Below, in pieces: positions 31,888-48,095 of a stretch of 64,000 bases of DNA. Within the stretch, counting starts at the first letter, position 1. Each line of letters starts with the position of its first letter. The stretch comes from Salinibacterium sp. NG253 (GTDB taxonomy: Bacteria > Actinomycetota > Actinomycetes > Actinomycetales > Microbacteriaceae), in contig NZ_JADYWF010000001.1 in NCBI RefSeq assembly GCF_015864945.1, positions 744,378-808,377 on the forward strand, written 5' to 3'. The notes under the pieces are model-generated. The model did not search any database and was not told the origin of the DNA. It saw only the letters and a program-made list of their open reading frames with translations. The translations under genes were made by a program, and so were the position numbers.

Positions 31888-32783
31888 CTCGCGGACTGAC
31901 TCACGCGAATGCGCTGGCAGAACCTACAGAAGTGCGAACCCCGGTTCATAAAGCTCTCACGCACGACCTCGCGACCGCAGCGCGGGCACGCCCGGCCTTG
32001 CTGGCCGTAGACGTTGAGCGAGTGCGCGAAGTAGCCCGACTCACCGTTCACGTTGAGGTACTGGGTGTCGAAGCTCGTGCCGCCCTCGGCAAGAGCCTTG
32101 GAGAACACCGCCCGCACTTCAGCGAGCAACTGCACCGCTTTCGCGCGGCTGAGGGTCTCGGTGGGCTGGTTGTAGTGCACGCGCGCGGCCCAGAGCGCTT
32201 CGTCGGCGTAGATATTGCCGACCCCGCTGATCAGGGTCTGATCGAGCAGCGCCCGCTTCACCGTGGTGCGCTTGGCCTTGAGCGATCGCAAGAACTTGGC
32301 ATCGTCGAAGAAGGGGTCGAGCGGATCACGCGCGATGTGCGCCACTTGGCTCGGCACCGCGAACGCGGGCTGGTCAACGGTGGGCAGCATGCTGTCGATC
32401 GCCATCGAGCCGAAGATACGTTGGTCAACAAAGTTGAGGCGCAGTGCGCCGTGGTCAGGATGATCAAGGTCGATCCGGATGCGCGTGAGCCGGTCATCCG
32501 TGCTCCGATCGCGTAGAAGCACCTGCCCGCTCATGCCGAGATGCGTGACGAGCGCTTCTCCGTGGGCCTCGGCGCTATCCGCGAGCGGAAGCCACATGAA
32601 CTTGCCGCGGCGCTGGGGGGTCAGGAACGTGCGACCGGTCAGACGGTCGATGAAGTCTTCACTCGGCCCCTCATGACGGCGCAGTGAGCGCTCGTCAAAG
32701 ACGCTGACGGATGCCGCAGTCGCGCCGGTCACCGCCGGTTCGAGCCCCGCGCGCACAACTTCGACTTCGGGAAGTTCGGGCAC
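31884..32783 (-). CDS. mutM: Formamidopyrimidine-DNA glycosylase
   Basis: This 299-residue Fpg/MutM starts (GTG) with PELPEVEVVRAGL, placing the catalytic Pro1 and Glu2 correctly. It has LVTHLGMSGQVLL, the H2TH region DQTLISGVGNIYADEALWAA, and the zinc finger CPRCGREVVRESFMNRGSHF followed by CRFCQ. It excises oxidised purines such as 8-oxoguanine. It follows rnc by 5 bases in the DUF177-rpmF-rnc-mutM operon. Confidence 0.97.
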   Translation of the reverse strand: MPELPEVEVVRAGLEPAVTGATAASVSVFDERSLRRHEGPSEDFIDRLTGRTFLTPQRRGKFMWLPLADSAEAHGEALVTHLGMSGQVLLRDRSTDDRLTRIRIDLDHPDHGALRLNFVDQRIFGSMAIDSMLPTVDQPAFAVPSQVAHIARDPLDPFFDDAKFLRSLKAKRTTVKRALLDQTLISGVGNIYADEALWAARVHYNQPTETLSRAKAVQLLAEVRAVFSKALAEGGTSFDTQYLNVNGESGYFAHSLNVYGQQGRACPRCGREVVRESFMNRGSHFCRFCQRIRVSQSAS

Positions 32784-32788
32784 GCCGG

Positions 32789-33490
32789 TTACTTCGCTGC
32801 GGCTTGGAGGCTTGTCCAGGCTTCGAGCGCTGCGGCCATTTCGGCCTGCTTCTTGCTGGAGCCGATACCCGTGGCAATTACTTCATCGTCGAGAGCGACG
32901 CTCGCGTGAAAACGCTTGGAGTGATCGGGGCCGCTATCTTCGATGCGATAGTCGGGAGCCCCACGCCCTAGTTGGGCGGCGAGTTCTTGAAGGCTCGTCT
33001 TGGGATCCATCGCTGCACCGAACCGTGCGGGGTCAGCAAGCAGCGGAGCGACGAGGCGAAGGACGAGCGCGGTGGCTTCGTCCTCGCCGAGGTCGAGGTA
33101 GGCGGCACCGATAATCGCTTCAACAGTGTCGGCCAAAATGGACGGCTTTTCGCGGCCGCCCGTCTGCTCTTCTCCCTTGCCGAGGCGAATGAACGCTCCA
33201 AGGCCGATCAGGCGCGCAATTTCAGCGAGCGCTACAGAAGAAACGAGACTAGCCCGACGCTTGGCAAGGTCTCCCTCGTCAAGCTCCGGGTTATCGCGAT
33301 ACAGCTTGACCGTTACTGCTTGGCCAAGAATTGAGTCACCAAGAAATTCAAGTCGCTCGTTGTGCGCGATTCCGCCGTTTTCGTACGCGAAAGAGCGGTG
33401 TGTCAACGCAAGCGTGAGCAACTCGGGGTCAATAGCGACCCCGAGCACAGCAGAGAGCTCAACCGGTGAGGCAGAGCCCGTCATCGCCAT
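32789..33490 (-). CDS. rnc: Ribonuclease III
   Basis: This 233-residue RNase III has the signature HNERLEFLGDSILGQAV (catalytic Glu/Asp), a second active-site segment LADTVEAIIGAAYLDLG, and the dsRNA-binding domain DYRIEDSGPDHSKRFHASVA followed by GIGSSKKQAEMAAALEAW. It processes rRNA precursors and double-stranded RNA. ATG 33490 and the in-frame ATG two codons later are both possible. Confidence 0.97.
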   Translation of the reverse strand: MAMTGSASPVELSAVLGVAIDPELLTLALTHRSFAYENGGIAHNERLEFLGDSILGQAVTVKLYRDNPELDEGDLAKRRASLVSSVALAEIARLIGLGAFIRLGKGEEQTGGREKPSILADTVEAIIGAAYLDLGEDEATALVLRLVAPLLADPARFGAAMDPKTSLQELAAQLGRGAPDYRIEDSGPDHSKRFHASVALDDEVIATGIGSSKKQAEMAAALEAWTSLQAAAK

Positions 33491-33515
33491 TTCGACTCGA
33501 GAATGTGAAGACTAG

Positions 33516-33719
33516 TTAAACGTCAGCGACCTTGCGACCCTTGTACTCCATGTACAGGGGCGTGCCAGCGGAGTCTTCGACTACCTTGGCGCGGTGCGGC
33601 AGGCTGTAAACAGTCTTGCCGTTTTCAACGGTCTTGACGAGGGTGGGAGGGGTTGCCTTCCACTGGGCGCGGCGCATGCGGGTGCTGGCCCGCGACATCT
33701 TGCGCTTCGGTACTGCCAT
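33516..33719 (-). CDS. rpmF: 50S ribosomal protein L32
   Basis: This 67-residue protein begins [20 protein letters not shown], the standard L32 N-terminus. It lacks the four zinc-binding cysteines (a C-minus form), which in actinobacteria often implies a second zinc-containing paralogue or zinc-independent use. It lies 2 bases after DUF177, the conserved YceD-rpmF pair, followed by rnc. Confidence 0.96.
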
Positions 33720-33721
33720 GG

Positions 33722-34309
33722 CTAACTCTTTTCTTCTTGGGTCTCAGGTGAATCGTTCGCGTCGTGCGAGTTCTGGTCATGCGAGTCTTGCGTGAAATCT
33801 TGGAGGCCGGCCAACGCTGCCCAGCGAGCATCGATGGGCGCTTCGTGTTCGTGTCCTGGATTATCGAGCAACCGAACCCCACACTCGGGGCACAGGCCAA
33901 GGCAATCCTTCTGACAGACCGGCTGGAACGGCAGTGACAACACTACCGAATCCCGCACTACAGGTTCTAGATCGATGTATTCGTCGATAACCGTGTAGTC
34001 GAAAGCTTCGTCCTCAGAATACGCGAAAAGTTCTTGAAACTCGACTCGGACAGGCAGGGTGACGTCAATGAGGCAACGAACACACTCAGCTTGCGCTTTG
34101 CCCGACACCACAGCATCCACAAGAATGCCGTCGTGGAGTGACTCAAAACGGCCCTTGACGGACAGTTTCGAACCCTTTTCTACCCCAACAACGGCGGTAC
34201 CAAAGGTTTCGGGTACGACGACCTGAATGGAGTGCTCTCTCATCTCGCCTGGGCGGTGAATGAGATCGCGCACCAACACGGCATACGGACTCTCGTTGAT
34301 TCTAGACAC
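33722..34309 (-). CDS. YceD/DUF177 family protein
   Basis: This 195-residue protein (GTG at 34309, [20 protein letters not shown]) contains [17 protein letters not shown], the CxxC pair [15 protein letters not shown] and the late Cys cluster [15 protein letters not shown], typical of DUF177. The family is linked to 23S rRNA accumulation in bacteria and plastids and is nearly always next to rpmF, as here. The longer frame up to 34360 adds a non-conserved N-terminus. Confidence 0.9.
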
Positions 34310-34573
34310 GATCGTCGATTCTACCCCCGCAACGGCTCCCCTGTCGCCCCCGGTCAGCAATCGCTCAGTCAGCTAGCCCACGGATGAGCACGCCAGACCG
34401 TGTGGGTCGGTGTAGGCAGGAGGGTTTGTACCTCTCTAGACTGGTGCGACAGACCCGTGCGCTTGGTATGGCGTGGTTGGTTTGCCCAGGATTGGGCTGC
34501 CGGTCTTCTCGAAACACTTTTCGTTCTTTGTGGCGCATTCTCGCGCCCATCCACCCGTTTCTTGGAAGGCTCC

Positions 34574-35578
34574 ATGTCTGCACTGTCTCGTTCCGTTTTG
34601 TCCCGTTCCGCGTTCTCTCGCACCGCGCTGCTGGCAGGTGTCTCTGTTCTTGCCTTGAGCGGATGCACTGCTGCCGCTGACGAGACCGACGCCACATCGC
34701 CCGATGCTGCGACGCAATCGGTTGAGCTCAGCAATTGTGGCTTCGATGTGACCTTCGACTCCGCTCCCGAGCGCGTCATCACGATCAAGTCGTCAACAAC
34801 CGAGATGCTTCTGGCGCTCGGCCTCGGCGATCGCATCATTGGAACTGCGTTTCAGGACGGCCCTGTGCCCGAACAATGGGCATCCGATGCTGCGGGCTTG
34901 ACCTCGATCGCGGAGCGCGTTCCGAGCGAAGAAGCCGTTCTCGATCTCGAGCCCGACCTTGTCTTTGCCGGGTGGGAATCAACGTTCAGCGCTGACGGCG
35001 CCGGCGAGCGCGCCGACCTCACTTCTCTGGGCATCAACACCTTCGTGGCTCCCTCGGCCTGCCAAAGCGCAGAACAGCCTGAACAGCTCAGCTTCGACAA
35101 CGTCTTCAGCGATATCGAGACGGTTGCCTCGATCTTCCGCGTGGATGCCACCGAGATCGTCGATGAACAGCGGGCCCAACTGGCCGCGATCGATGCCAAT
35201 GGCGACTCCCGTACCGCTCTCTGGTTCTCCTCGGGATCCGACACTCCTTACGTCGGCGCCGGCATCGGAGCACCGCAACTGCTGCTCGACACTGTTGGCC
35301 TCACCAACATCGCTGGAGACCTCGACTCGACGTGGGCTCCCTTCAACTGGGAAGCCGTCGTTGACGCCGACCCCGACTTCATTGTGCTCGTGGATGCCGC
35401 CTGGAACACCGCAGACAGCAAGATCGACGTGCTTGAGGCCAACCCCGCCACCGCGAACCTCAGCGCTGTGAAGGCTGGCCGTTACCTCGTGGTGCCGTTC
35501 GCGGCGAGCGAGGCCGGCGTGCGCAGTGTTGAAGCCGCCGAAAGCCTGTCGGCTCAAATTGCGGAGCTCGATGGCTAA
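34574..35578 (+). CDS. Putative F420-0 ABC transporter, substrate-binding lipoprotein
   Basis: The ATG at 34574 with GGAAGG 4 bases before it gives 334 residues: a signal sequence ending in the lipobox LSGC, then a class III (FecB/BtuF-like) binding domain (FDSAPERVITIKSSTTEMLL, ALGLGDRIIGTAFQ). It is the first gene of a three-gene cassette whose next members overlap or abut it. The best family fit from memory is the actinobacterial F420-0 binding protein (TIGR03868). The presence of cofE and fgd nearby supports this over a siderophore or cobalamin role. Biochemical proof is absent. Confidence 0.78.
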   Translation: MSALSRSVLSRSAFSRTALLAGVSVLALSGCTAAADETDATSPDAATQSVELSNCGFDVTFDSAPERVITIKSSTTEMLLALGLGDRIIGTAFQDGPVPEQWASDAAGLTSIAERVPSEEAVLDLEPDLVFAGWESTFSADGAGERADLTSLGINTFVAPSACQSAEQPEQLSFDNVFSDIETVASIFRVDATEIVDEQRAQLAAIDANGDSRTALWFSSGSDTPYVGAGIGAPQLLLDTVGLTNIAGDLDSTWAPFNWEAVVDADPDFIVLVDAAWNTADSKIDVLEANPATANLSAVKAGRYLVVPFAASEAGVRSVEAAESLSAQIAELDG

Positions 35579-36581
35579 AGTTTCTCCGCTCGCCTTCGGC
35601 ACCGCGCTGGGGATCGCACTTCTTGTGTCGATCACCATCGCGGTGACGATTGGCCCTGCCGACATCCGCTTCGATGAGGTCTGGCGCTCGATTGGCAGCC
35701 ACCTCGGTATCGGAGTGAGCCCGCTCACAGAATTGCGGGATGGCATTGTGTGGCAGTTGCGTTTGCCTCGCGTGCTCACCGCTGCGGCGGTGGGTGCGGG
35801 GCTCGCGCTGAGCGGTGCGGTGATGCAGGCAATTACGCGCAACCCACTCGCCGACCCGTATCTGCTCGGGCTGTCATCGGGCGCGGCTCTGGGCGCGGTG
35901 TCAGTGATTGTGCTTGGCGCCGCCGTGTTACTTCCGTTTGCCGCCTTTGCAGGCGCGTTGCTCGCGCTCACCCTCACGTTGCTGTTGGCAGGATCCCTCG
36001 GTGCAATCACCCCGTCGCGCACGGTGCTCGCCGGCATCGCCGTCTCGGCGCTTGCCTCGGCAGTCACAAGCTTTGTCATCTTCTGGAGCGTCGACGGCGA
36101 CTCCTACCGTGAAGTGTTGTCGTGGCTGCTCGGCTCCCTTAGCGGAGCCCGCTGGCCTGCGGTCGGCATCACCATGGTTGCCATCATCGTGATCGGAGTC
36201 CCCGTGATGCTTACGGGACGGCTGCTCGACTCCTTTGCCTTCGGCGACGTGCAGGCAGCGTCGCTCGGAGTGAACGTCAGCGCGACCCGCTGGGGACTGC
36301 TGGCTGCATCCGCCCTCGTCACCGGCGCCATGGTCTCGGTGAGCGGATCGATCGGCTTCGTGGGGCTCATCCTGCCGCATGCCGTTCGACTGCTCGTAGG
36401 GCCAGGGAACCGCGCCCTGCTCCCCCTGAGCGCCCTCCTCGGCGCCGTCTTTCTCGTCTGGGCCGACACCCTTGCGCGCACACTCTTCGACCCGCGCGAG
36501 ATTCCCGTCGGCATCGTCACCGCCATGATCGGTGCCCCCATCTTCGCGTTCCTCCTCACCCGGCGAAAGAGCTCAACATGA
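35571..36581 (+). CDS. Putative F420-0 ABC transporter, FecCD-type permease
   Basis: This 336-residue permease starts at ATG 35571, overlapping the binding-protein stop by 8 bases. It has about nine to ten hydrophobic helices and FecCD-family motifs: GAGLALSGAVMQAITRNPLA, DPYLLGLSSGAALGAVSVIV and SGSIGFVGLILPHAVRLLVG. It forms the membrane channel of the importer with the neighbouring ATPase. Assignment to the F420-0 subfamily (TIGR03869-like) rests on gene context and overall resemblance. Confidence 0.78.
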   Translation: MAKVSPLAFGTALGIALLVSITIAVTIGPADIRFDEVWRSIGSHLGIGVSPLTELRDGIVWQLRLPRVLTAAAVGAGLALSGAVMQAITRNPLADPYLLGLSSGAALGAVSVIVLGAAVLLPFAAFAGALLALTLTLLLAGSLGAITPSRTVLAGIAVSALASAVTSFVIFWSVDGDSYREVLSWLLGSLSGARWPAVGITMVAIIVIGVPVMLTGRLLDSFAFGDVQAASLGVNVSATRWGLLAASALVTGAMVSVSGSIGFVGLILPHAVRLLVGPGNRALLPLSALLGAVFLVWADTLARTLFDPREIPVGIVTAMIGAPIFAFLLTRRKSST

Positions 36582-37363
36582 GTGACGACACCGGCCTTGT
36601 CGCCGAACGAATCCGCGTCACTATCGACGGCACCCTGCTCATCGACGACGTCGACTGCACGGTAGCGCGAGGCTCCCTCAGCGCTCTCGTCGGGCCAAAC
36701 GGTGCCGGAAAATCCACACTGCTGCGGGCCCTGACCGCCGTGCAGGCTCCGGCATCCGGAACCGTCACGTTCGGCAACGCCGACCTGCTCGGGATGCCGC
36801 GTCGCCAACGCGCGCGCCTTGCCGCGTTCGTGGAACAAGACGCCACCACCGACTCCTCCCTCACCGTCGACATGGTCGTGAAGCTCGGGCGTCTGCCCCA
36901 CCAGTCACTGTGGGAGGCTGACTCCCCCGAATCCGCTGCCGTCGTGACGGCAAGCCTCGAGACCGTGGAAATGACCGCATTCCGCGAACGCGAATTCCAG
37001 AGCCTCTCTGGTGGCGAAAAGCAACGCGTCATGCTTGCCCGCGCCCTCGCCCAAGAACCACAGCTGCTGACCCTCGACGAACCGACCAACCACCTCGACA
37101 TCGCGGCCCAACTCGCCGTGCTCGAACTGCTGTCGAGCCTGCGCACCACGGGCGTGACTGTGCTGGCCGCGCTGCACGACCTCTCCCTCGCGGCGAGCTA
37201 CTGCGACCACATCATTGTGTTGTCCCAGGGCCGCGTCGTGGCGGCAGGCGCGACCGATACGGTGCTGACCGAACAGCTGATCGCTGACGTGTATGGCGTC
37301 ACGGCATCCATCCTGCGCAATCCGGTCACGGGCAAGCCTGTCATCGGGTTCAGCCCGGCGTAG
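36578..37363 (+). CDS. Putative F420-0 ABC transporter, ATP-binding protein
   Basis: This 261-residue ABC ATPase starts 4 bases inside the permease stop (ATGA). It has Walker A GPNGAGKSTLLRAL (residues 39-52), the signature LSGGEKQRVMLARAL, Walker B LLTLDEPTNHLDIAAQLAVL and the H-loop ALHDLSLAASYC. It is the energy subunit of the cassette (TIGR03873-like). Close relatives also serve ferric siderophores and cobalamin, so the substrate call depends on the F420 gene context. Confidence 0.8.
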   Translation: MSDDTGLVAERIRVTIDGTLLIDDVDCTVARGSLSALVGPNGAGKSTLLRALTAVQAPASGTVTFGNADLLGMPRRQRARLAAFVEQDATTDSSLTVDMVVKLGRLPHQSLWEADSPESAAVVTASLETVEMTAFREREFQSLSGGEKQRVMLARALAQEPQLLTLDEPTNHLDIAAQLAVLELLSSLRTTGVTVLAALHDLSLAASYCDHIIVLSQGRVVAAGATDTVLTEQLIADVYGVTASILRNPVTGKPVIGFSPA

Positions 37364-37376
37364 CCCCAACCCAACC

Positions 37377-37420
37377 GAGATCTAACCCACCCGAGATCTA
37401 GCCCGCTTGTGATCTAACCA
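37377..37420. repeat. Three direct repeats with a 16-base period
   Basis: GAGATCTAACCC (37377), GAGATCTAGCCC (37393) and GTGATCTAACCA (37409) lie exactly 16 bases apart in the short gap between the convergent ABC ATPase and transglutaminase genes. The stop codon of the latter is within the third unit. Their function is unknown. Confidence 0.7.
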
Positions 37421-39645
37421 CGACGGTCTCGGGGACTAAACGCCGTGCGCGGAGCCAGTGCAGCCCGAAGTTGCCCACGCCAGCCAACGGATGCTCGCAG
37501 CGCGGCGAGCACATTCGTCACGGCTCCCGCACGCACGGTTTCGGGTCGCGGGCTGAAAGCGCTCGCCTCAACCTGCCCAAGCAAGGAGCTGAGCGCGGAT
37601 GTCCCGGAGTCGCCGAGGTGCTCGGCGAGGTGCTCGGCGAGGTGCTCGAACTGTTGCCGCGGGGTTGCTGTCGCGCTCAACGGATAGCCGAGATCGATTG
37701 CGGTGTCGCGCACTTCACGCCAGGCTGTGCCGGTCTCTCCTCGCCTCACGGCGGCCAATCGTAGAGCCCGACGGGTGACCCGCACGAGGGCTGGAATGAG
37801 CAGAAGCACAGGCAAGGCGAGCACGAGCCACCACCACGGTGAGATCTCGACGCCGTTGGGCGTTGCCGCGGAGGAGTCTTCATCGAGGGGCAGATCGGGG
37901 CGGGCACCAGGCGTCGCTGGGGAGGTCGACGTTGGGGTTGCTACGGGCTCAGGTTGCGATTCATCGACATCCGGCGTGTTGGGGTCATCTTCAACACTTT
38001 GGGCGAAACGTGGAGCGCTTCCCACCGAGACGGTCGGTTCGAAACGGATCCACCCGATGGTCGGGAAATAGAGCTCAGGCCACGCATGCAGATTGTCGGT
38101 GGACACGAGGAAGCGTCGTTCGTCCGAGTCATCCGCGATTCGTTCGCCGGGCGTGAACCCGACCACCACTCGCGATGGGATCTCTAGGCTGCGGGCCATC
38201 GCGGCCATCGCAGAAGCGAAGTGAACGCAGTAACCGCTCTTCGCCGTGAGAAACTCGCCAAGAACACCGGCGCCGGAACCGTCATATTCCTCGGCGACGG
38301 GAGCATCTTCTGAATACGTGAAGTCACCGTCGGCAAAGAATGACTGCAGCGCCAACGCCTGATCGAAGCGAGTCGTTTCGCCGCGCGTCACAGCGTCGGC
38401 TGTCTCAGTCACGATGCTCGGAAGGGTCTCCGGCAGCTCAAGATAGCGCTCAAACCCATCGGGTAGCGTCGTCGGGGCGGCCTCCAGTTGCTCGACCGAG
38501 GGCGCGGGCGAAACGAACGCGACTTCGTAGTTTTGGCCACGAGAGTTCGAGTCGTCGGTCGATACCGTGAGCCCGTCTGGCTCCCACGACCAGTCGCCCT
38601 CAAGCCCACTAATGTTGGCCGTCGCATACGGCACCGGCAAGAGCTTTCCCCGGATGCGGTCAATCTCGACCTGCAGCACCTTCTCCTCCCGCGGCACTTC
38701 GTCGCTCAGACCGGGTGCTATCGGAAATTCGGTGACGCTGCCAGCGGCTGTTGGCTCGTTTTCCGACGGCTCCCAAGTGTCCTCCGAAAACACGTCAAGC
38801 GCGGCCACGCGAAGGTACTCCCCGCCGCCCTCAGAGGCATAGGTCAATGCTCGCAAGGGAATGCCTCGGCGGAGGTCAGTGCTGAGGTTGATGATCGGGT
38901 TCACCCCGGTGGAGATGAGACCCTGCCCGCTCCCCAATTGCTCCGCTGGTTCAGCGCTCGGCAGCACCACCGGCACGATGAGAGACAGCACTAGGGCGGC
39001 CGAAATCAGCGGCCACGCCGAACGAGTGTTCTTCTGCGAGGATGCCACCAAGAGCACCGCAACATAGGCGATCGCGGTTGCGGCGAAGACAAACGCATCG
39101 TGCAATTCGGTGCGCACAAAGCTCGGCACCAGAAGAAGAATAGTGAGCGGGATGGCGGTCAACGCTGGTTTCTGCAGCACGAACGCCGCGACATCCATGG
39201 CCACGGCCACGGCCAACGCACCGAGACAGATCAGGAAGACGATCCCCACAAACGCATCAGCCGGAAAACGCTGTACCGCGATGGAGGCTTGCCCCTGCGT
39301 CACCAGTTCACCAAACCGCGAGGCCGTATCTCCCGTCGGGATGATGCCGAGGGTGGCCGTCTGAGGCGCGAACATCAGCACGAGCGAGACCAGCCCACCG
39401 GCGGCCGCGACCACCGAGCCAAGCCACGCTCGCGAGTTCACACTGCGGAAGGCGGCGCCCGACGCCAGAACCGCCACCACCACGGCCATAAAGGGGAACC
39501 ACCAGGCACCCTCGGCTAGCACTGCCCCGAGACTGCTCGCCGCAACGCCCGTCGCCAAGGCTAGAACACCCGCAATCGACCACAGTCGCACTCGGCGATA
39601 GTGCTTCGCTACGCTCGCGACCCTCGCCGCCTCAGTCGTGCTCAC
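37414..39645 (-). CDS. TgpA-like membrane transglutaminase
   Basis: The GTG at 39645 gives 743 residues and overlaps the upstream DUF58 gene by 14 bases. N-terminal hydrophobic helices (about 20-235) correspond to DUF3488. The transglutaminase core follows, with Cys in AKSGYCVHFASAMAAMARSL, His in FLVSTDNLHAWPELYFP and Asp/Glu in IGWIRFEPT. A late transmembrane helix and DUF4129-like tail (EHLAEHLAEHLG repeat) end it. With DUF58 and MoxR it forms a widespread operon of unknown cell-envelope function. Confidence 0.88.
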   Translation of the reverse strand: MSTTEAARVASVAKHYRRVRLWSIAGVLALATGVAASSLGAVLAEGAWWFPFMAVVVAVLASGAAFRSVNSRAWLGSVVAAAGGLVSLVLMFAPQTATLGIIPTGDTASRFGELVTQGQASIAVQRFPADAFVGIVFLICLGALAVAVAMDVAAFVLQKPALTAIPLTILLLVPSFVRTELHDAFVFAATAIAYVAVLLVASSQKNTRSAWPLISAALVLSLIVPVVLPSAEPAEQLGSGQGLISTGVNPIINLSTDLRRGIPLRALTYASEGGGEYLRVAALDVFSEDTWEPSENEPTAAGSVTEFPIAPGLSDEVPREEKVLQVEIDRIRGKLLPVPYATANISGLEGDWSWEPDGLTVSTDDSNSRGQNYEVAFVSPAPSVEQLEAAPTTLPDGFERYLELPETLPSIVTETADAVTRGETTRFDQALALQSFFADGDFTYSEDAPVAEEYDGSGAGVLGEFLTAKSGYCVHFASAMAAMARSLEIPSRVVVGFTPGERIADDSDERRFLVSTDNLHAWPELYFPTIGWIRFEPTVSVGSAPRFAQSVEDDPNTPDVDESQPEPVATPTSTSPATPGARPDLPLDEDSSAATPNGVEISPWWWLVLALPVLLLIPALVRVTRRALRLAAVRRGETGTAWREVRDTAIDLGYPLSATATPRQQFEHLAEHLAEHLGDSGTSALSSLLGQVEASAFSPRPETVRAGAVTNVLAALRASVGWRGQLRAALAPRTAFSPRDRRG

Positions 39646-41002
39646 GGAGCACCTTAGATTCCGAAACCAACAGGTTCCAGGCGTCGGCGACATCGTCGTA
39701 GGAACGAACCGAAATGACCTTCCACCCTGCGGTGCGCAACTGATCAGCAACCGGCGCACGTTTCTCGGTGCCCCCACGCTCACGGTCACCGAAACTGGAC
39801 GACGATTCCACTACGAACGCAACGGCAAGCCCGGCGCCGGTTGTCTGAGCTGCGAGAAAGTCAACGGTCTCAGCATCAGGATTCGCGACCAACGCGATCG
39901 TGGGCACCGACGTGGCAGCGCGCGCTGCAGAATCTGTCCACCACGCGGCGGGCGAATCGATGGGCGCTATCGCCGCGAGCCGAGTAAGCAGCTCCTGCTC
40001 CGCCGCCGACCTGCGGTGCAGGACAGCCGCATCCGTCAATTGAGACTGCCCCGTTTCAACAATGCTCACGAGAAAACCCTCGCGCCGTAGCTGCACGGCA
40101 GCCGACGCGAGCATGCTCACTACCCACTCGAATCGAGGACTGTGCGCCGACGCAACAGCAGAACCGGAAGGCGTGCGAATCACGGCGGCGCGGCTGGCAT
40201 CGGGGTAGCCGACCAGCCGAGTATCGACAATGATGCGGGCCTGCGGATAGCTGTGCTGCTCTTCTTGACGCACCATGAGACTGCCGTGGCGAGCGGACGC
40301 TTTCCAGTGCACGCGACGCATGGCATCGCCCCGACGATACTCGCGCGTCATCGCGTCATCGTCGTCACCGGCGGCACGACGTTGCACGACCCGTGCTTCG
40401 CCATCTCCGGACTGCGCCAACAGCGCTGTCGGCGCGAACTGCACCACTTGCGGCGTCACGATGAGCAGTGTTGCAGCGCCCACGCTCCAGGCACCCCACG
40501 CCAGTTGAAGAGGATCAGAGGCTTCGACCACGAGCGGCCCGACATCGAAGACTCCGCGGGTGGTCGGGGTGAGGGTGTAACTCAATTGCGCGGCGCTGCG
40601 ATCATTGCCCGCCCCCGTCTTCACCGACAACCGCGGAAGCCAACCGCTCTCGGTCACCCACGGGTGCCACGGAAGACCATCGCGCCACCGCATCGCGGCC
40701 GTCGCACGCCGCAATTGATTATCGACGCGCAGCGTCACAGCCGTCGTGCTTGCCGCTTCGACCACCGGGAACGAAAAACGACGAGTAACCGTCATCGCCG
40801 CCGCGTGCCTCCGCACGAAAAATGCCGCCACCGTCGGCAAGGCCAGGGCAAAAGACCCGACATATAACAAAATCGGCATACCGGCACCAAAACCCACACC
40901 CAGTGCAACGCCGCCCGCCACCAAGAAGGTCGCGCCGCGATTCGTCAGTCGGGCACCACCCATCACAATGCGAATGGATCGCAGCAGCACGTCGCGGGCC
41001 AT
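39632..41002 (-). CDS. DUF58 domain protein
   Basis: This 456-residue protein has two N-terminal hydrophobic helices and the DUF58 core motif REYRRGDAMRRVHWKASARH followed by GSLMVRQEEQ. DUF58 proteins have a von Willebrand A-like fold and are coupled to MoxR ATPases and transglutaminases. It starts 11 bases after the MoxR stop. Function is not established. Confidence 0.88.
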   Translation of the reverse strand: MARDVLLRSIRIVMGGARLTNRGATFLVAGGVALGVGFGAGMPILLYVGSFALALPTVAAFFVRRHAAAMTVTRRFSFPVVEAASTTAVTLRVDNQLRRATAAMRWRDGLPWHPWVTESGWLPRLSVKTGAGNDRSAAQLSYTLTPTTRGVFDVGPLVVEASDPLQLAWGAWSVGAATLLIVTPQVVQFAPTALLAQSGDGEARVVQRRAAGDDDDAMTREYRRGDAMRRVHWKASARHGSLMVRQEEQHSYPQARIIVDTRLVGYPDASRAAVIRTPSGSAVASAHSPRFEWVVSMLASAAVQLRREGFLVSIVETGQSQLTDAAVLHRRSAAEQELLTRLAAIAPIDSPAAWWTDSAARAATSVPTIALVANPDAETVDFLAAQTTGAGLAVAFVVESSSSFGDRERGGTEKRAPVADQLRTAGWKVISVRSYDDVADAWNLLVSESKVLREHD

Positions 41003-41013
41003 GACAGCTGTCT

Positions 41014-42009
41014 CTAGGATGCGGCCGCGTGCACCGGCACCGGAGTCTCGGCCACGATGCGCTCGATGACATCCGCGATTGAGTGCCCAGAGAGCAGTGC
41101 CGAAGTGTCACCGGTGTGACGAGCAGGAATCATCCGATGGGCCAGCACCGTCACAGCGAGCGCATCAATGTCATCCGGAAGAACAAAGTCGCGGCCGTCA
41201 ATCGCGGCTCGCGCCTTTGCCGCGCGCACCAAATGCAGCGTCGCGCGGGGACTCGCACCCACCCGCACTTCACGGTCGCGGCGGGTTGCTTGAGCGATCG
41301 CCACGGCATATTCCTCCACGGCAGTGCTCACGAAGACGCGGCGTACGGTCGCGATGAGCTCGCGCAACTGCGACACCGAGACCACCGGGGTAAGAGCATC
41401 CAGCGGACTTGTCAGCTCCCGTGACCGCAACATGGCCAGCTCGGCTGCGGCATCCGGATATCCCATTGAAATTCGGGCCATAAACCTGTCGCGCTGAGCC
41501 TCGGGCAACGGATAGGTGCCCTCCATCTCGATGGGGTTCTGCGTCGCCACCACGATGAACGGGCTCTCAAGTTCGTAGGTCGTGCCATCGACGGTGACAC
41601 TCGACTCGGCCATGCACTCGAGTAGTGCCGACTGCGTCTTGGGGCTTGCACGGTTGATCTCGTCGCCAATCACAATGTTGGCGAAAACAGGACCCTTCTT
41701 GAATTCAAATTCGCGGGTGTTTTGGTTATAGACCGAGACACCAGTGATGTCTGCCGGCAGCAAGTCTGGGGTGAACTGCACGCGAGAAACGGTGCTGTCG
41801 ACCGTGCGCGCCAGGGCTCTCGCCAGCATGGTCTTACCGACCCCGGGCACATCCTCGATGAGAAGATGACCCTCCGCCAGCAACACCGTGAGCGCCAATC
41901 GCACGGCCTCCGTCTTGCCATCAATCACGGTCGAAATACTGCGCACAATGGCGGCACAGTGATCGTGGAACACGTCGTCGGGTAGTGACCCGGAGGTAGG
42001 GGCATCCAT
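41014..42009 (-). CDS. MoxR-family AAA+ ATPase
   Basis: This 331-residue MoxR ATPase has Walker A EDVPGVGKTMLARALARTV, Walker B GDEINRASPKTQSALLECMA, and sensor motif VVATQNPIEMEGTYPLPEAQ. It is thought to act as a chaperone-like ATPase with the DUF58 partner. Start ATG 42009 is chosen; a GTG at 42036 overlapping the preceding stop (TAGTG) is an alternative. It is followed directly by DUF58 and TgpA-like genes. Confidence 0.93.
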   Translation of the reverse strand: MDAPTSGSLPDDVFHDHCAAIVRSISTVIDGKTEAVRLALTVLLAEGHLLIEDVPGVGKTMLARALARTVDSTVSRVQFTPDLLPADITGVSVYNQNTREFEFKKGPVFANIVIGDEINRASPKTQSALLECMAESSVTVDGTTYELESPFIVVATQNPIEMEGTYPLPEAQRDRFMARISMGYPDAAAELAMLRSRELTSPLDALTPVVSVSQLRELIATVRRVFVSTAVEEYAVAIAQATRRDREVRVGASPRATLHLVRAAKARAAIDGRDFVLPDDIDALAVTVLAHRMIPARHTGDTSALLSGHSIADVIERIVAETPVPVHAAAS

Positions 42010-42035
42010 GGGTCGAGTCTTACACCGGTCTTCCA

Positions 42036-42395
42036 CTACGGCAATTGCTTACGCTTGCGCAGTTCATCTTCAAGGGCACGGATCTTTTCTTGGCGCTGAA
42101 AGTATTCGATCTCCGCATCGAGCTTCGCAATCTCTTCTTCGGTCGAGCTTGGCCGCATCGACGACTGGTGTTCGCGACGCTCGGGGGCACCAAAGGGCAA
42201 ATATCTGGGGGCGGTGGACTGGTGCTCGCGGCCGATAGCAAACCAGAGAATGCTGCCAATGAAGGGCATGAAGATCACGAGAAAGATCCAGGTGACCTTG
42301 CCGAGATGCTTGATGCGCGATTCATCGATCAGGATGATGTCGATCAGGACCGCGATGAGCAACGCGAAGTACGCGAGCGAAATGAGACTCCCCAT
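42036..42395 (-). CDS. PLDc_N-type membrane protein
   Basis: This 119-residue protein has two hydrophobic helices: SLISLAYFALLIAVLIDIIL and VTWIFLVIFMPFIGSILWF, ending in AIGRE, the phospholipase D nuclease N-terminal (PLDc_N) motif. A charged coiled-coil tail (EEEIAKLDAEIEYFQRQEKI) follows. Function unknown. It lies between cofE (38 bases away) and the MoxR gene, all on the same strand. Confidence 0.8.
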   Translation of the reverse strand: MGSLISLAYFALLIAVLIDIILIDESRIKHLGKVTWIFLVIFMPFIGSILWFAIGREHQSTAPRYLPFGAPERREHQSSMRPSSTEEEIAKLDAEIEYFQRQEKIRALEDELRKRKQLP

Positions 42396-42433
42396 CTGCT
42401 CATCGTAGAGGTAATCTCACGTACAGTCGAGTA

Positions 42434-43222
42434 TTAGTCTTCTTTAGTTTCGACGGTGTTGTACGCCTCATCGAAGCCCGCCATCCACGCCTCTTTCGTG
42501 CCCAAACTGAACATGTCTTCGGGGCCGGACCGAACGAGCGAACGTGCGCCGGGAGCGTCGAGATCAGCGACGTGCTGGCCAAGGCCGCGAAGGACCGCAA
42601 CGGGCAATCCCCCGGCCTTGCCTTTGACCAAATCTGTCGCGGCAGCAACTTCATCGGCGAGCGCTGTGACACTGACCGCAAGCGGGCGACCCGAAGCATC
42701 CGCGGTTCCACGCAAATCATCCAAGACATGGATGCCCGCCGCGCCAATCGCAATGTCGGCCTGCCCTTTGCGCCAAGGCCTGCCCACGGTGTCAGTGATG
42801 ACGATGCCGACCGTCACCCCGAATCGCTCGCGGAGCCCGGCGCAGAGGTCACGAGCCGTGGCATCGGGATCGAGAGGGAGCAGCAAAACGATGCCATCGG
42901 GGGTATTGCTGGAATCGACGCCTGCCGCCGCCATCACGAGCCCGAGACGGTTCTCCACAATGCGAGTGACGCCGTTGGGGTGCTCGCGGGATGCCACCAC
43001 GCGCACCGTTTCGTCGGTGATGGCTTGCTCGCGATCAGCGGCTTCCACCGAACGCCCCTCGGCCTTGCTCACGATCTTGGAGGTCACAGTGAGGATGTCG
43101 CCGTCGACAAGCCCGCCAGAGTTCACGTCGTCAGAGTCGGCGACGAGAGCCGCCGCAATCGCCTCAAGAAGGCTGTCGCCGGACTGAATTTCGGGGATGC
43201 CGGGCACAGCCCATGCGCTCAT
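42434..43222 (-). CDS. cofE: Coenzyme F420-0:L-glutamate ligase
   Basis: This 262-residue protein matches the CofE/FbiB-N family: [67 protein letters not shown] and [20 protein letters not shown]. It adds glutamates to F420-0 (GTP- and metal-dependent) in the cytosol. It lacks the C-terminal FMN domain of mycobacterial FbiB, so it is the stand-alone form. A GTG at 43261 overlapping the upstream fgd-like stop is an alternative start. This is the only F420-synthesis gene in the window. Confidence 0.92.
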
Positions 43223-43260
43223 TCTCACGCGTCTAGTCTGCGGCATTTCGGGAGCAGTCA

Positions 43261-44274
43261 CTACTTGCGCAGCGCCGGCAGCACGTCGCGCCCGAAGACG
43301 TCGAGGAACTCGCGCTGATTGCGTCCAACGTTGTGGAGGTAGATACGGTCGAATCCGAGATCGAGGTAGCTCTGGATGTAGGCACGGTGCACGTCCGGAT
43401 CGGCACTCACGGGCATCCGGCCTTCGAAGTCTTCTGGTCGCACCATGCGGGCGAGCTGTTCGAGCTCAAACGGTGAGCGGATGTCGTTCTTCGCAAACCG
43501 CAAACCGCCGTTCGGCCATTCCGTGAGCGCGTTGCGCATGGCCTGCTCATCTGTTTCGGCCCAGCTCAAGTGCAACCGCAGTACGCGGCTCTGAGTTTCG
43601 GGCTTGCGGCCCGCTTCGCGCGCTCCTTCGGCGAATCGCTTGAGCAGCATGTCGACTTTCTCGAGGGGTGCTGCTTCGGTGATGAGACCGTCGACGGTTT
43701 TGCCCGCACGCTTGGCGGCGACGGGGCCTGCTGTCGCAACGAGGATCTCGGGCGCGACTTCGGGCATGGTCCAGAGGCGTGTCGATTCGAGCCGATAGAA
43801 CTGGCCTTCGTGGCGCACATCTTTGTTGCCGAGACCCGAAGCAAAAAGTTTCTTGATGATCTCGACGGCTTCGAACATGCGGTTAATGCGTTCGGGGGCT
43901 TCTGGCCAGTACTGGCCGACGATGTGTTCGTTAATGGCTTCGCCGCTGCCGAGCCCGAGCCAGTGCCGTCCCGGATTCATCGCGGCTAGCGTCGCCGAGG
44001 CTTGAGCGACCATTGCCGGATGCCACCGAAAGGTGGGTGCGGTAACTCCCGTGCCGAGATCGCCGGTCGTTGTCTCGCCCAGAGCACTCAGCACGTTCCA
44101 CACGAACGAAGCCTGTCCCTGCTGGGGAACCCACGGCTGGTAGTGGTCGGCGGCCATTACGCCGCGAAATCCCTGCGCTTCGGCATGCTGCGCGAACGCC
44201 ATCACATCGCGCGGATGAAACCGTTCAAGCATGGCGGCGTAGCCGATGTGGGGTGCAGCAACTGTCACGGGCAT
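43261..44274 (-). CDS. F420-dependent glucose-6-phosphate dehydrogenase-family protein
   Basis: This 337-residue LLM protein starts [20 protein letters not shown]. It carries the FGD-type active-site set His44 and Trp48 ([10 protein letters not shown]) and Glu112 ([13 protein letters not shown]). It also has [20 protein letters not shown]. It is clearly in the F420-dependent G6PDH family but more diverged from mycobacterial FGD1 than the copy at 46572. It probably oxidises a sugar phosphate or other alcohol using F420. It is immediately upstream of cofE in the same orientation. Confidence 0.85.
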
Positions 44275-44384
44275 CCGTCTATTGTGGCGTGCATTGCGCT
44301 TGTCATGCTGCACCAGAGTCACAGAGCATTGAATTGCCGTCGCGAGGAGCGGATAATGGGCGACCTACTCACTGAGGAGTCGGC

Positions 44385-45173
44385 ATGAATCTGGGCGCGT
44401 TTTCCACCAGCACCGCTAGTCCGCTCATGCACGTCATCCTCATTCCAGGGTTCTGGCTCGACGAAGCATCGTGGGGCCCCATTACTCAGTCGCTGCGCGC
44501 TGCTGGCTACACGGTTCACCCGTTGACACTTCCCGGTCTTCACCGCAACGACACCGACCGAGCAACCATCACTCTGGCCGACCACGTTGCCGCGGTGGTT
44601 GACGTAGTCGATAGCCTCACTCGCGACTATGACTGCGAGGATGACGCAGCGCACGGCCAAACAGCGCCTCACATTGTGCTCGTGGCCCACAGCGGTGGCG
44701 GCCCCATCGCCCACGCTGTTGCGGATGCTCGTCCCACTTGCCTTGCGCGCATCGTTCACGTCGACACGGTGCCGCTCCCCCACGGGATGCCGATCAACGC
44801 CGACCTTCCGACAATTGATGGTGAGATTCCGCTGCCCGATTGGGCGGTATTCGACGACGAAGACCTTGTTGATCTCACCGCTGAGCTGCGGGCCACATTC
44901 CGGGAGATGGCGATTCCGCAGCCCGCTCGCGTGGCTAGCGACCCGCAAAATCTGTCGACTCCGGCACGGTTTAGCGTTCCCGCCACAGTGATTTGTTGTG
45001 AGTTCACGAGCGAACAAGTGCGGTCATGGATGCACGACTCTGAGCCATTCGCCGCAGAGCTTGCACGCCTCGACGACCTCGAGCTCGTTGACCTGCCCAC
45101 CGGGCACTGGCCGCAGTTCACGAAGCCAGCTGAACTTGCCGAAGCAATCGTCACGGCTGTGCATCGCAGCTAA
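44385..45173 (+). CDS. Alpha/beta hydrolase
   Basis: This 262-residue hydrolase has a GAGGAG ribosome site before its ATG. It shows LIPGFWLDEASWGPIT, the nucleophile elbow HSGGGP and a late His in LPTGHWPQFTKPAELAEA. A classical acid residue between them is not obvious. The elbow differs from the usual GxSxG (VAHSGGG). It is divergent from the fgd-like gene. Substrate unknown. Confidence 0.82.
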   Translation: MNLGAFSTSTASPLMHVILIPGFWLDEASWGPITQSLRAAGYTVHPLTLPGLHRNDTDRATITLADHVAAVVDVVDSLTRDYDCEDDAAHGQTAPHIVLVAHSGGGPIAHAVADARPTCLARIVHVDTVPLPHGMPINADLPTIDGEIPLPDWAVFDDEDLVDLTAELRATFREMAIPQPARVASDPQNLSTPARFSVPATVICCEFTSEQVRSWMHDSEPFAAELARLDDLELVDLPTGHWPQFTKPAELAEAIVTAVHRS

Positions 45174-45181
45174 ATAGGGTC

Positions 45182-45210
45182 TTGTCCTCTGCGAGCGCCC
45201 GTCCTACACT
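45182..45210 (+). promoter_or_regulatory. Sigma-70-type promoter of the small ORF
   Basis: TTGTCC (45182-45187) and TACACT (45205-45210) are 17 bases apart, each matching consensus at 4/6. A transcript would start near 45217, about 26 bases before the ribosome site and GTG at 45243. Confidence 0.6.
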
Positions 45211-45242
45211 GAGCAAACGCCAACTATTGAAAGGAGCCTGAC

Positions 45243-45308
45243 GTGTTTATGTTCGTTACGACCAAGAACCCCACTACCGCCGGCTCCGTCGGCACCCTCA
45301 CCGCCTAA
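45243..45308 (+). CDS. Predicted 21-residue peptide
   Basis: A GTG at 45243, preceded by AAAGGAG at the right distance (7 bases) and by a consensus-like promoter, opens a 21-codon frame. It begins VFMFVTTKNP and ends GSVGTLTA. The TAA stop lies inside the palindrome CTAACCGGTTAG (45305-45316). No homologue is recognised. It may be a regulatory leader peptide or a small secreted/signalling peptide; it could also be a non-functional chance frame. The strong ribosome site argues for translation. Confidence 0.55.
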   Translation: MFMFVTTKNPTTAGSVGTLTA

Positions 45309-45561
45309 CCGGTTAGCGTTCTCTGCTCACCGATTCTGACGGTGGCGGCGCTCACGGAGCACACGACCCAACTCGATCATCACGAGACCGCGTTCGACTG
45401 ACGAGTCGGCACACCCTCACTAGGGTTGCGCAGCACTCACCGTGATGATCACCCCTTCTCTGGCGACTCGCGATCGCTGAAGGTTGCCGTTGGGTCGCCA
45501 CCTGAAACAGCGCGCTTTGGCGCGCCATCCGCAACCTCTCTCTGTCACGAAAGTTTCCATC

Positions 45562-45840
45562 ATGAACGAACTACTGGCGGCCTCGAAAGACCGCCACGCC
45601 CATCCGCCCGAACCTGACCCCGTCGAGAGACCGCGCCCAGCGGCAGCACGTCGCGTGGGAGTCATCGACCGGCTTGCGCTGCATCTCGGCGTCGCACTCA
45701 TCACGTGGAGCCGCCGGCCCCACCGTGCGCGACTGATCGCGTCGGCCGAGCTACTGGCCGCACACCAGCTCCGTCGTGAGCGCCTGGCTCACGCCAGAGC
45801 TCGCGCCGAGCAGAACTATCCGCGGTTCATCATCCGCTGA
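45562..45840 (+). CDS. Small Arg/Ala-rich protein of unknown function
   Basis: This 92-residue protein starts with MNELLAASKDRHAHPPEPDP and has an amphipathic segment VIDRLALHLGVALITWSRRP followed by HRARLIASAELLAAHQLRRE. It is strongly basic. A GAAAG site lies 9 bases upstream. A terminator hairpin (45853-45884) follows. No family recognised; short basic proteins of this style are common near stress genes in Microbacteriaceae. It could be membrane- or nucleic-acid-associated. Confidence 0.6.
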   Translation: MNELLAASKDRHAHPPEPDPVERPRPAAARRVGVIDRLALHLGVALITWSRRPHRARLIASAELLAAHQLRRERLAHARARAEQNYPRFIIR

Positions 45841-45852
45841 ATTCGCCGCACT

Positions 45853-45892
45853 CGACCGCCGCTGGATCGCTCCGGCGGCGGTCGTTTCGTTC
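45853..45892 (+). terminator. Rho-independent terminator after the Arg/Ala-rich gene
   Basis: CGACCGCCGC (45853-45862) pairs with GCGGCGGTCG (45875-45884); inner TGG/CCG extend the stem to about 13 bp around an ATCGCT loop. TTTCGTTC follows. It separates the gene from the Hsp20 gene's promoter. Confidence 0.8.
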
Positions 45893-45916
45893 TCAGCGAA
45901 TATGAAGCGAAATTTC

Positions 45917-45973
45917 TTGGCACTCTCAGGTCGAGAATGCTAATTTTTGATTGTTGAGTCACGGTGACTCAAC
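45917..45973 (+). promoter_or_regulatory. Hsp20 promoter with HAIR (HspR) operator
   Basis: TTGGCA (45917-45922) with GCTAAT (45939-45944) gives a plausible -35/-10 with a 16-base spacer. Immediately downstream lies a perfect inverted repeat with 10-bp arms GTTGAGTCAC and GTGACTCAAC (45953-45962, 45964-45973). It contains TTGAGT-N7-ACTCAA, the HAIR core bound by the heat-shock repressor HspR. Binding there would block transcription in unstressed cells. Confidence 0.85.
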
Positions 45974-45992
45974 TTTGAGAAAGGGGTTCCCC

Positions 45993-46433
45993 ATGACACT
46001 GTCATTTGATCCTTTTGCCGAACTCGACCGGCTCACTGCAGCGGCCCAGTCCCGCGTCGGCGCCCAGCCGATGCCGGTTGATCTGTACCGTCAGGCCGAC
46101 GAGTACGTCCTCACCGCCGACCTCCCGGGCATCGACCCGGGCTCCGTTGACGTCGACGTTGATGGCCAGTTGCTCACCATTCGCGCCGAACGCACCGCTG
46201 GCGAACGCGAGGGAGCCAAGTGGCTCTCTCAGGAACGTCGCTACGGTTCTTACTTGCGCCAGTTCAGCATTGGCGCTGGCATCGACCGCGACAACATCAG
46301 CGCCAGCTACGACAATGGCGTCTTGAGCGTCATTATTCCGGTCTCCGAGAAGGCAAAACCTCGAAAGATTGAGGTCAGCACCAACTCGGCGAACCAGGCT
46401 CGTTCAAGCGAAAAAGTCGCCGTCACGAGCTAG
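45993..46433 (+). CDS. Hsp20/alpha-crystallin small heat-shock protein
   Basis: This 146-residue protein starts MTLSFDPFAELDRL after GAAAGGGG. The alpha-crystallin domain runs VDLYRQADEYVLTADLPGID through LTIRAERTAGEREGAKWLSQ, and ends with the IxV-type VSVIIPVSEKAKPRKIEV. It is an ATP-independent holdase protecting unfolded proteins. It is alone in its unit, controlled by a HAIR site upstream and ended by a hairpin at 46475-46511. Confidence 0.93.
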   Translation: MTLSFDPFAELDRLTAAAQSRVGAQPMPVDLYRQADEYVLTADLPGIDPGSVDVDVDGQLLTIRAERTAGEREGAKWLSQERRYGSYLRQFSIGAGIDRDNISASYDNGVLSVIIPVSEKAKPRKIEVSTNSANQARSSEKVAVTS

Positions 46434-46474
46434 CCGACACCGGAACGTCGCCGCGTTCGACGGTGGCGCACAAC

Positions 46475-46511
46475 AACGATGGGCGGATGCTTCACGCATC
46501 CGCCCATCGTT
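46475..46511. terminator. Bidirectional hairpin between hsp20 and fgd
   Basis: AACGATGGGCGGATGC (46475-46490) pairs perfectly with its complement at 46496-46511, with loop TTCAC. It lies between two convergent genes and probably terminates both. Confidence 0.8.
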
Positions 46512-46571
46512 CGTTAAGCCTGTCGCACTAGAGCCGTGCTCTCGCGCGAGCCGCTGCGGTCAGAACGCGAG

Positions 46572-47588
46572 TTACAGCGCCCGCAATCGCGGTGCAATGT
46601 CGCGCTCGAAGAGCTCAAGGAAACGGCGCTGGTCGTTGCCGGGCGCGTGGAAGACGAGGTGGTTGAGGCCGGCATCCACGTAGGGACGAATCTCTTCCAC
46701 AATCTTGTCGGGATCGTTGCCGACGATCCACCGCGAAGCGATCTGTTCAATGGGCAGAGCATCGGCGGCACGTTCCATCTCGATGGGGTCAGTGATGTCG
46801 TGCTTCTGCTCCTTCGAGAGAGCAAGTGGCGCCCAGAAACGCGTGTTCTCGAGAGCAACGTCGGCATCGGTGTCGTACGAGAGCTTGATTTCGATCATCC
46901 GGTCGATATCTTCGAACTTGCGGTCAGCCTTGGCCGCGCCCTCTTTGACGCCCGGGATCAGTGCGTCGTTGTAGAGCTCCATGCCCTTGCCCGAGGTGCA
47001 GATAAAGCCATCTCCGGCACGACCCGCATAGCGGGCAACCATCGGCCCACCGGCAGCGATATAGATCGGGATGGGCTGGTCAGGGCGGTCATAAATGCTC
47101 GCGTCGTGGGTGGAGTAGTACTCGCCATCGAAGGAGACGCGATCTTCGGTCCAGAGCGCTCGCATGAGACGGACTGATTCGCGCAAGCGAGCAAAGCGCT
47201 CTTTGAACTCGGGCCACTCTTGCTCACCGGCGCCACGGAATCCGGTGGCAATTTCATTCAGAGCCTCACCAGAACCAACACCCAACATGATGCGCCCCGG
47301 GTAGAGGCAACCCATCGTCGCGAACGCTTGAGCAAGCACAGCCGGGTTGTAACGGAACGTCGGCGTCATCACGCTCGTGCCGATCCGGATCGTGCTGGTG
47401 CGCTCCCCCACCGCGGCCATCCAGGTCAGCGAGAACGGAGCATGTCCGCCTTCGTGACGCCACGGCTGGAAGTGGTCGCTAACCGCAACACTCTCCATGC
47501 CGTGTGCTTCTGCGGCCACTGCGATCTCAACGAGTTCACGCGGGGCAAATTGTTCTGCTGACGCTTTGTATCCGAGGGTGAGTGTCAT
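46572..47588 (-). CDS. fgd: F420-dependent glucose-6-phosphate dehydrogenase
   Basis: This 338-residue protein closely matches the mycobacterial FGD1 enzyme as remembered: [59 protein letters not shown] and [20 protein letters not shown]. His39, Trp43 and Glu108 correspond to the catalytic His40, Trp44 and Glu109 of FGD1. It oxidises glucose-6-phosphate while reducing F420 to F420H2, supplying reductant to F420-dependent enzymes. It is 18 bases downstream of coaD on the same strand. Confidence 0.93.
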
Positions 47589-47606
47589 AAACCCATTGTG
47601 CCGGTG

Positions 47607-48095
47607 TTAGTCGCGCGGCGCTTGCAAAAACTCAGAAACCGAACGCGGAACATAGGGCGCGACGTCTCCGCCAAGCGCGGCAACCTGGCGCACCAGCGAA
47701 CTAGACACGTGCGCATGAGCGGGGTTCGGCAGCATGAAAATCGTCTCTACCCCGGCGAGATCGCGGTTGACGATAGCCATAGGAGTTTCGTACGCGACAT
47801 CCACTTGAGAACGGATGCCCTTGATGATGACACTCGCCCCGACATCGGTGCAGTAGTCGACAAGAAGGCCCATACTCCAGCTAGTTACAAGGATGTTGCC
47901 CTCGAGGTGGGCGTCGGCAACGGCCTGCTCGATGAGCGAGACGCGCTGCGCAATCGGCAAAAGCGCGGTCTTGCCCGGGTTGTGCACGACGAGAACGTGC
48001 ACTTCGTCAAAGGTTTTCGCTGCCCGCTCAATCACATCGAGGTGGCCAAGGGTGACAGGGTCAAACGACCCAGGAACAACAGCGATCCGACTCAT
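47607..48095 (-). CDS. coaD: Phosphopantetheine adenylyltransferase
   Basis: This 162-residue protein begins [20 protein letters not shown] with the nucleotidyltransferase HxGH (TLGH). It has [20 protein letters not shown] and ISSS-like [20 protein letters not shown]. It makes dephospho-CoA from 4'-phosphopantetheine. Complete and of normal length, it lies between fgd and recG. Confidence 0.97.

Follow-up and report, generated by a model that had tools for sequence, protein, structure and literature searches.

A candidate importer of F420 precursors in Salinibacterium sp. NG253 and its mutual exclusion with FbiC in sampled actinobacterial genomes

The common view of coenzyme F420 is that its users synthesise it themselves, by a de novo pathway of FbiC (the FO synthase), CofC/FbiD, CofD/FbiA and CofE/FbiB. 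A putative F420-0 transporter is represented by the families TIGR03868, TIGR03869 and TIGR03873, whose TIGRFAM descriptions reportedly propose import of F420-0 into organisms whose F420 synthesis is reduced to little more than CofE; the NCBIfam names agree with this idea, and the models are hypothetical equivalogs. A cassette of this kind was analysed here in 64,000 nt of Salinibacterium sp. NG253 (NZ_JADYWF010000001.1, positions 744,378 to 808,377, forward strand), a stretch referred to below as the window. Judged by sequence, the locus appears to be a further case of the known cassette, with a binding lipoprotein and a permease over the TIGR03868 and TIGR03869 cut-offs and an ATPase whose best family is TIGR03873. 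It differs in that the ATPase stays under its cut-off and cofE lies outside the importer operon. With the de novo pathway it shares CofE and the gene island, whereas the first three steps are absent. The gene order is the same as in the marine actinobacterium PHSC20C1 (locus L102), an organism of the TIGRFAM text; the binding lipoprotein shares 84% identity with that of PHSC20C1 and 99% with its counterpart in Salinibacterium sp. SWN248. A survey of the exclusion between importer and FbiC, apparently new here, showed that the constant correlate of the importer among relatives is the absence of FbiC, and not the absence of everything except CofE. We consider it quite probable that this bacterium is an F420 auxotroph in which the importer replaces FbiC, with FO as the cargo in relatives and F420-0 or F420-n as the cargo here.

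The three importer genes (34574-37363, plus strand) are overlapping open reading frames in the order binding lipoprotein, permease, ATPase, and the first-pass annotation of this DNA had located them correctly, together with cofE and the adjacent gene of a luciferase-like monooxygenase (LLM). It had assigned all three to the F420-0 importer families. This held for the binding lipoprotein (34574-35578; TIGR03868, 473.1 bits against a curated cut-off of 392.4; PF01497) and for the FecCD-type permease (35526-36581; TIGR03869, 482.6 bits against 437.35; PF01032), the likelier start of which is the ATG at 35571, overlapping the lipoprotein stop codon. The ATPase (36578-37363) matched TIGR03873 best, at 336 bits against 245.9 for the runner-up family, and remained below the cut-off of 372.4.

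Stand-alone cofE, encoding the F420-0:L-glutamate ligase, lies at 42434-43261 on the minus strand (TIGR01916, 226 bits, cut-off 180.65), again as annotated, and the protein retains 73 of 73 near-invariant columns in an alignment of 78 homologues; its solved relatives are 2phn, 2g9i and 7uld. The F420-dependent glucose-6-phosphate dehydrogenase (FGD) was found at 46572-47588 on the minus strand, with 644.8 bits to TIGR03554 against a cut-off of 420. It lies outside the interval 34574-44274 that had been taken to hold it, and is close to the solved FGD1 5lxe (604 bits). The gene mistaken for it, a few genes away at 43261-44322 on the minus strand, encodes an LLM oxidoreductase of the F420_G6P family (TIGR03557, 286 bits, cut-off 210.4) and fails as FGD with 208.9 bits to TIGR03554.

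The genome (G000; 2.97 Mb, 9 contigs, 99.9% complete) was searched as a whole with profiles of the biosynthesis genes, and control genomes scored positive in each of these searches. No CofD was found (no match to PF01933 at all and none to TIGR01819), nor was FbiC/CofH (TIGR03551) or CofG (TIGR03550), and a hidden FbiC in the form of split CofG and CofH proteins was thereby ruled out. CofC gave one TIGR03552 match below cut-off (9.2e-4); among the 83 genomes of the window's family that have no true CofC, 62 show a match of this kind. The genes whose absence had been suspected are indeed all missing genome-wide. As a separate observation, the PF01933 result also means that no YvcK-like protein was found in G000, while the Escherichia coli and Corynebacterium glutamicum controls score.

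Since the importer, CofE and FGD are present and CofD, FbiC, CofG, CofH and a true CofC are absent, the gene content supports the salvage reading of the first-pass annotation, and the bacterium most likely is an F420 auxotroph living on precursors from other cells. The binding lipoprotein would capture the F420 precursor outside the cell, the permease and the ATPase would bring it in, CofE would attach the glutamate tail, and FGD and the LLM enzymes would then use the cofactor; the transport, its cargo and the direction of flow are what we infer from these genes. Because CofC and CofD are absent, the cargo here should already carry the lactyl-phosphate, as F420-0 or as an F420-n that CofE can lengthen. 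The missing biosynthesis genes would also be expected of a relic F420 system without supply, or of a CofE and an FGD serving another cofactor. The intact near-invariant columns of CofE, the closeness of FGD to FGD1 and the retention of FGD in 15 of the 16 family genomes that have only importer and CofE make this very improbable.

The family survey scored each gene in 150 genomes of the window's family, sampled evenly out of a larger group, and a genome was counted as having the importer if its binding lipoprotein scored over the curated TIGR03868 cut-off. The importer was present in 46 genomes and FbiC in 32, with no overlap. FbiC was accompanied by CofC, CofD and CofE in all 32 (25 with FGD). 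Thirty genomes had the importer with CofC, CofD and CofE (27 with FGD), and 16, the window's genome among them, had the importer with CofE only. Five carried CofC, CofD and CofE but lacked both FbiC and an over-cut-off importer, one (G022) had CofE and FGD alone, and 66 had none of the genes. The proposal that CofE is the sole remaining step is thus right for this genome and does not extend to the family, where 30 of the 46 genomes with the importer also carry CofC and CofD. CofE was present in 46/46 importer genomes and in 71/71 FGD genomes, FGD being found only with CofE, and cofC and cofD shared exactly one set of 67 genomes. An importer without FbiC was thus found in 46 of 84 CofE-bearing genomes, and in a further three the importer is divergent or split. 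Two of these importers lie beside cofD, in G119 (327.7 bits) and in G049 (177.3 and 152.3 bits for its two pieces), and were assigned by their place in the island instead of by score, because a binding lipoprotein of equal score (G168, 328.3 bits) occurs with FbiC; the third, in G022, consists of pieces at two contig ends.

These counts exclude weak FbiC matches in G041 (8.2e-4), G070 (2.6e-6) and G135 (2.2e-7) as other radical-SAM proteins, and CofC matches weaker than 1e-20, which were taken to be other nucleotidyltransferases. CofE was counted over cut-off (84 of the 89 genomes with any match), and CofD includes two sub-cut-off cases, G009 (two pieces) and G099 (a fragment). The C-terminal reductase of FbiB (TIGR03553), intended to distinguish import of F420-0 from that of dehydro-F420-0, was found in 0 of the 150 genomes at 1e-15, F420 makers included, in a search in which no control genome scored over cut-off and which thus lacked a positive control. 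This null result bears on the route by which the family reduces dehydro-F420-0, if it makes dehydro-F420-0.

The exclusion was also seen in a sample of 296 genomes of the class, where 30 had the importer and 202 had FbiC (E value of 1e-30 or better), again with no overlap. The importer genomes belonged to the window's family (8) and to families f8 (1), f26 (19) and f33 (2); 26 of the 30 were new, and CofD was present in all 26, over cut-off in 24 and otherwise at 202.4 bits (G331) or in two pieces (G354). Over both samples there are 72 importer genomes, and FbiC is absent from every one. A search for CofG in 66 of the 72 yielded only three matches, each under 28 bits, with 8 of 8 FbiC controls positive. 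Within one genus (g85), at the thresholds used, G314 had the importer without FbiC, and G284, G294 and G384 had FbiC without the importer. Fisher tests of importer against FbiC gave 1.9e-6 (all 150 genomes), 1.8e-17 (CofE-bearing genomes) and 2.8e-17 (class).

The name of an F420-0 transporter fits these surveys poorly, as the importer goes with the absence of FbiC and mostly with a retained cofD. In 30 of the 46 family importer genomes CofC, CofD and CofE are kept and FbiC alone is absent, so that FO is what they lack; the presence of CofD in all 22 importer genomes outside the family points to FO as well. Across the family, then, the importer would stand in for FbiC, and the cargo needed by relatives that keep CofC and CofD would be FO. 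The 16 CofE-only genomes are different, since FO is useless to CofE and F420-0 or a form with a tail has to be the cargo. Most members of the importer family probably carry something other than F420-0.

The position of cofD fits an FO importer that replaces FbiC. In 24 of the 30 family genomes with importer and CofD, cofD lies on the same strand within 3.5 kb of the binding lipoprotein gene, in 15 of the 24 downstream of the cassette, and the tblastn matches for the ATPase and for cofD either overlap or almost abut in G084 and G006. The genome G042 has fbiC inside the same island, between cofC and cofD. In the window, cofC and cofD are lacking at both sites where relatives have them, namely the gap between yceD and the binding lipoprotein gene (34361-34573, their place by synteny in G048 and G009) and the 50-bp gap between the ATPase gene and tgpA (37364-37413, their place in G006 and G084).

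There are also reports that FO leaves its producers. Published accounts describe spent medium of wild-type Streptomyces venezuelae that fluoresces, possibly from FO, and from which an fbiC mutant gains fluorescence (PMC12282290), FO identified by mass spectrometry in the medium of Mycobacterium smegmatis (PMC3012119), and FO in the supernatant of Mycetohabitans rhizoxinica (PMC11104420). On these accounts FO leaks from producers and something like FO is taken up.

Several results weigh against an importer that replaces FbiC and against the cargoes proposed for it. FO is described as membrane permeable in another paper (PMC11917521), so FO users may need no importer, and three genomes, G027, G016 and G053 (loci L078, L079 and L080, respectively), have CofC, CofD and CofE with neither FbiC nor an importer detected. 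These three might obtain FO by diffusion or by another transporter, or might be in decay; no other transporter was recognised by eye among the open reading frames near cofD and cofC in G016 and G053. As to the cargo proposed for the window, a study of M. smegmatis gives F420-0 as undetected in wild type and mutants (PMC7253369); free F420-0 may thus be scarce, which would favour F420-n or breakdown products. The exclusion is tied to the curated cut-off, as relatives of the binding lipoprotein at 266-328 bits co-occur with FbiC (e.g. in G168, G317, G347 and G194), and both the Fisher tests and the counts treat species as independent and ignore relatedness. CofC and CofE were scored in the family sample of 150 genomes, and the ATPase was assigned to the cassette by its place in the operon, short of the TIGR03873 cut-off. 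Among the open-licence PMC papers searched, no transport or binding experiment on the importer was found.

The permeability and leakage of FO, and the three genomes that seem to do without importer and FbiC, would fit an importer that carries F420-0 or F420-n in all genomes, FO simply diffusing to CofD where CofC and CofD are kept. Such an importer would leave both its exclusion with FbiC (0/46 and 0/30) and its adjacency to cofD in 24 of 30 genomes without a reason, and we regard it as rather unlikely.

A tree of 70 binding lipoproteins (68 of the 72 over cut-off and two divergent ones) requires seven changes between cofD-bearing and CofE-only states, of which well-supported branches force at least four, and four genera (g69, g42, g33 and g59) have one member of each state, the cofD-bearing member of g42 (G113) being only 77% complete. 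We infer repeated joint loss of cofC and cofD, as opposed to gain, as the origin of the CofE-only state; lineages like that of the window would have lost both genes together several times, their need shifting to F420-0.

The scatter of CofE-only genomes over this tree would also suit an importer that takes any deazaflavin (FO, F420-0 or short F420-n) by the shared head group, the cargo being set by the enzymes that the cell retains. An alignment by hhalign of the binding lipoprotein with E. coli BtuF pairs W134, Y226 and W254 with W85, F168 and W196, which presumably are contacts to B12, and places position 115 next to W66; the cleft positions rest on this alignment, which used a single-sequence template and had a probability of 94.3%. 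Both W134 and W254 are invariant over the 150 rows, and position 226 holds Y or F in every row, as would suit recognition of a shared head group. Parallel differences in the cleft loops, described below, hint at specialisation instead, and this broad specificity is possible, if somewhat doubtful.

The likeness to the cobalamin importer BtuCDF includes the class III binding protein fold and the FecCD permease as well as the three aligned aromatic positions. The AlphaFold2 model of the binding lipoprotein (pLDDT 88.4) matched the PDB entry 4mlz best (TM 0.79/0.88), followed by unassigned binding proteins and binders of haem, siderophores and B12. These features would also be seen in a siderophore, haem or cobalamin importer of the usual kind lying near cofE by chance. 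This reading was rejected, as hardly credible, on profile scores, riboswitch search and exclusivity. On the comparison with siderophore and cobalamin families that the first-pass annotation had in view, the binding lipoprotein and the permease fit TIGR03868 and TIGR03869 more than 200 bits better than the best siderophore or B12 models (BtuF 28.8, BtuC 262.9 and 239.2 bits), and every such model listed for them stays below its equivalog cut-off. For the ATPase, with TIGR03873 best though under cut-off, none of these models reaches its cut-off among the matches listed (25 of 191 families). No Rfam family reached its gathering score in 30000-50000, so no cobalamin or FMN riboswitch was seen there, and the importer is tied to F420 genes, occurring only with CofE (46/46) and never with FbiC.

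The cleft loops of the binding lipoprotein suggest, from sequence, that cofD-bearing and CofE-only groups differ in parallel, which we treat as a lead and not as a result. R or K at position 115 was found in 14/16 CofE-only sequences against 11/54 others, S, R or V at 222 in 14/16 against 5/54, and S at 275 and K at 282 each in 11/16 against 0/54. The pattern is thus a basic residue at 115, loss of an acid or threonine at 222, A275S, and a basic residue moved from 286 to 282. The summed charge at 115, 222 and 282 was at least +1 in 16/16 against 7/54, the loop columns having been chosen on the same 48 rows and the permutation ignoring relatedness. The same measure gave 19/20 for hold-out loci with cofE and no cofD, against 9/24 with cofD at the locus, where CofE-only means that no cofD lay within the fetched flank and at least 4 of the 20 (L098, L100-L102) are closely related to the window. 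Column 115 alone of 290 gains charge in all four same-genus pairs; the test on independent pairs had only these four supported pairs and cannot reach 0.05. The window's own protein has a partial CofE-only set (R115, S222, A275, S282). The parallel is weakened by position 286, which loses its basic residue in the same lineages, by columns 101, 189, 202 and 331, which lose charge in three of the four pairs, by column 327, which gains charge in three of the four and lies outside the loops, and by K282 in 4 of the 24 cofD-bearing hold-out loci (L116, L117, L120 and L133). The altered loops could accommodate the phosphate and carboxylate, which are absent from FO.

The best structural match, 4mlz, is a periplasmic binding protein of Jonesia denitrificans (PDB 2013) whose title names no function; it is about 50% (49-50%) identical to the window's protein, scores 298.8 bits, and, read from the alignment, carries the CofE-only type residues R115, S222, S275 and K282.

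It may be proposed, tentatively, that the importer family was originally an FO (deazaflavin) importer replacing FbiC across several actinobacterial families, and that F420-0 or F420-n importers arose from it repeatedly at the joint loss of cofC and cofD, with parallel cleft-loop changes fitting phosphate and carboxylate. The genomes would then form a graded ladder of makers, FO users and F420-0 users. Three points were not found in the open-licence PMC papers searched, namely that importer and FbiC exclude each other, that FO would be the cargo in the CofD-bearing majority, and that the step to CofE-only was repeated; earlier publication of the FO idea is possible.

As first annotated, four LLM (PF00296) genes are present in the window. 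Besides 43261-44322 and 46572-47588, they are a probable F420 user at 20290-21093 on the minus strand (TIGR03856, 383.1 bits, cut-off 243.7) and an LLM-class oxidoreductase at 23941-24822 on the plus strand (PF00296, 143.5 bits; best NCBIfam TIGR03619, 128.7 bits, below its cut-off of 166.9). The TIGR03557-family FGD homologue adjoins cofE in most fetched cofE loci, of makers, FO users and CofE-only genomes alike, and it may be a main F420 user of the window's family. In the Agromyces loci L124, L126 and L138, FGD-type tblastn matches flank the importer on both sides, with LLM1 and cofE downstream.

The unit between importer and cofE, on the opposite strand to the importer, proved to be of the TgpA, DUF58 and MoxR families named in the first-pass annotation. 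It comprises, all on the minus strand, a TgpA-type transglutaminase outside the F420 module (37414-39690, start uncertain; PF11992, 158.5 bits; PF01841, 80.9 bits), a DUF58 protein (39632-41002; PF01882, 26.1 bits, cut-off 23.4) and a MoxR-type AAA ATPase (41014-42036; PF07726, 215.7 bits). Elsewhere, a 543-aa open reading frame at 61661-63292 gave a weak sub-cut-off match to a type VII secretion system (T7SS) signal domain.

If the importer does have the proposed role, many actinobacteria that use F420 are unable to make the head group of the cofactor, and finding CofE, FGD or CofD in a genome would not show F420 production. The importer would then serve as a cheap genomic marker for F420 auxotrophy, 4mlz would be a solved structure to inspect for ligand, and same-genus pairs differing in cofC and cofD could be used for comparison. 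Should the ladder also hold, F420 would be a shared good, with dependence graded from makers through FO users to F420-0 users.

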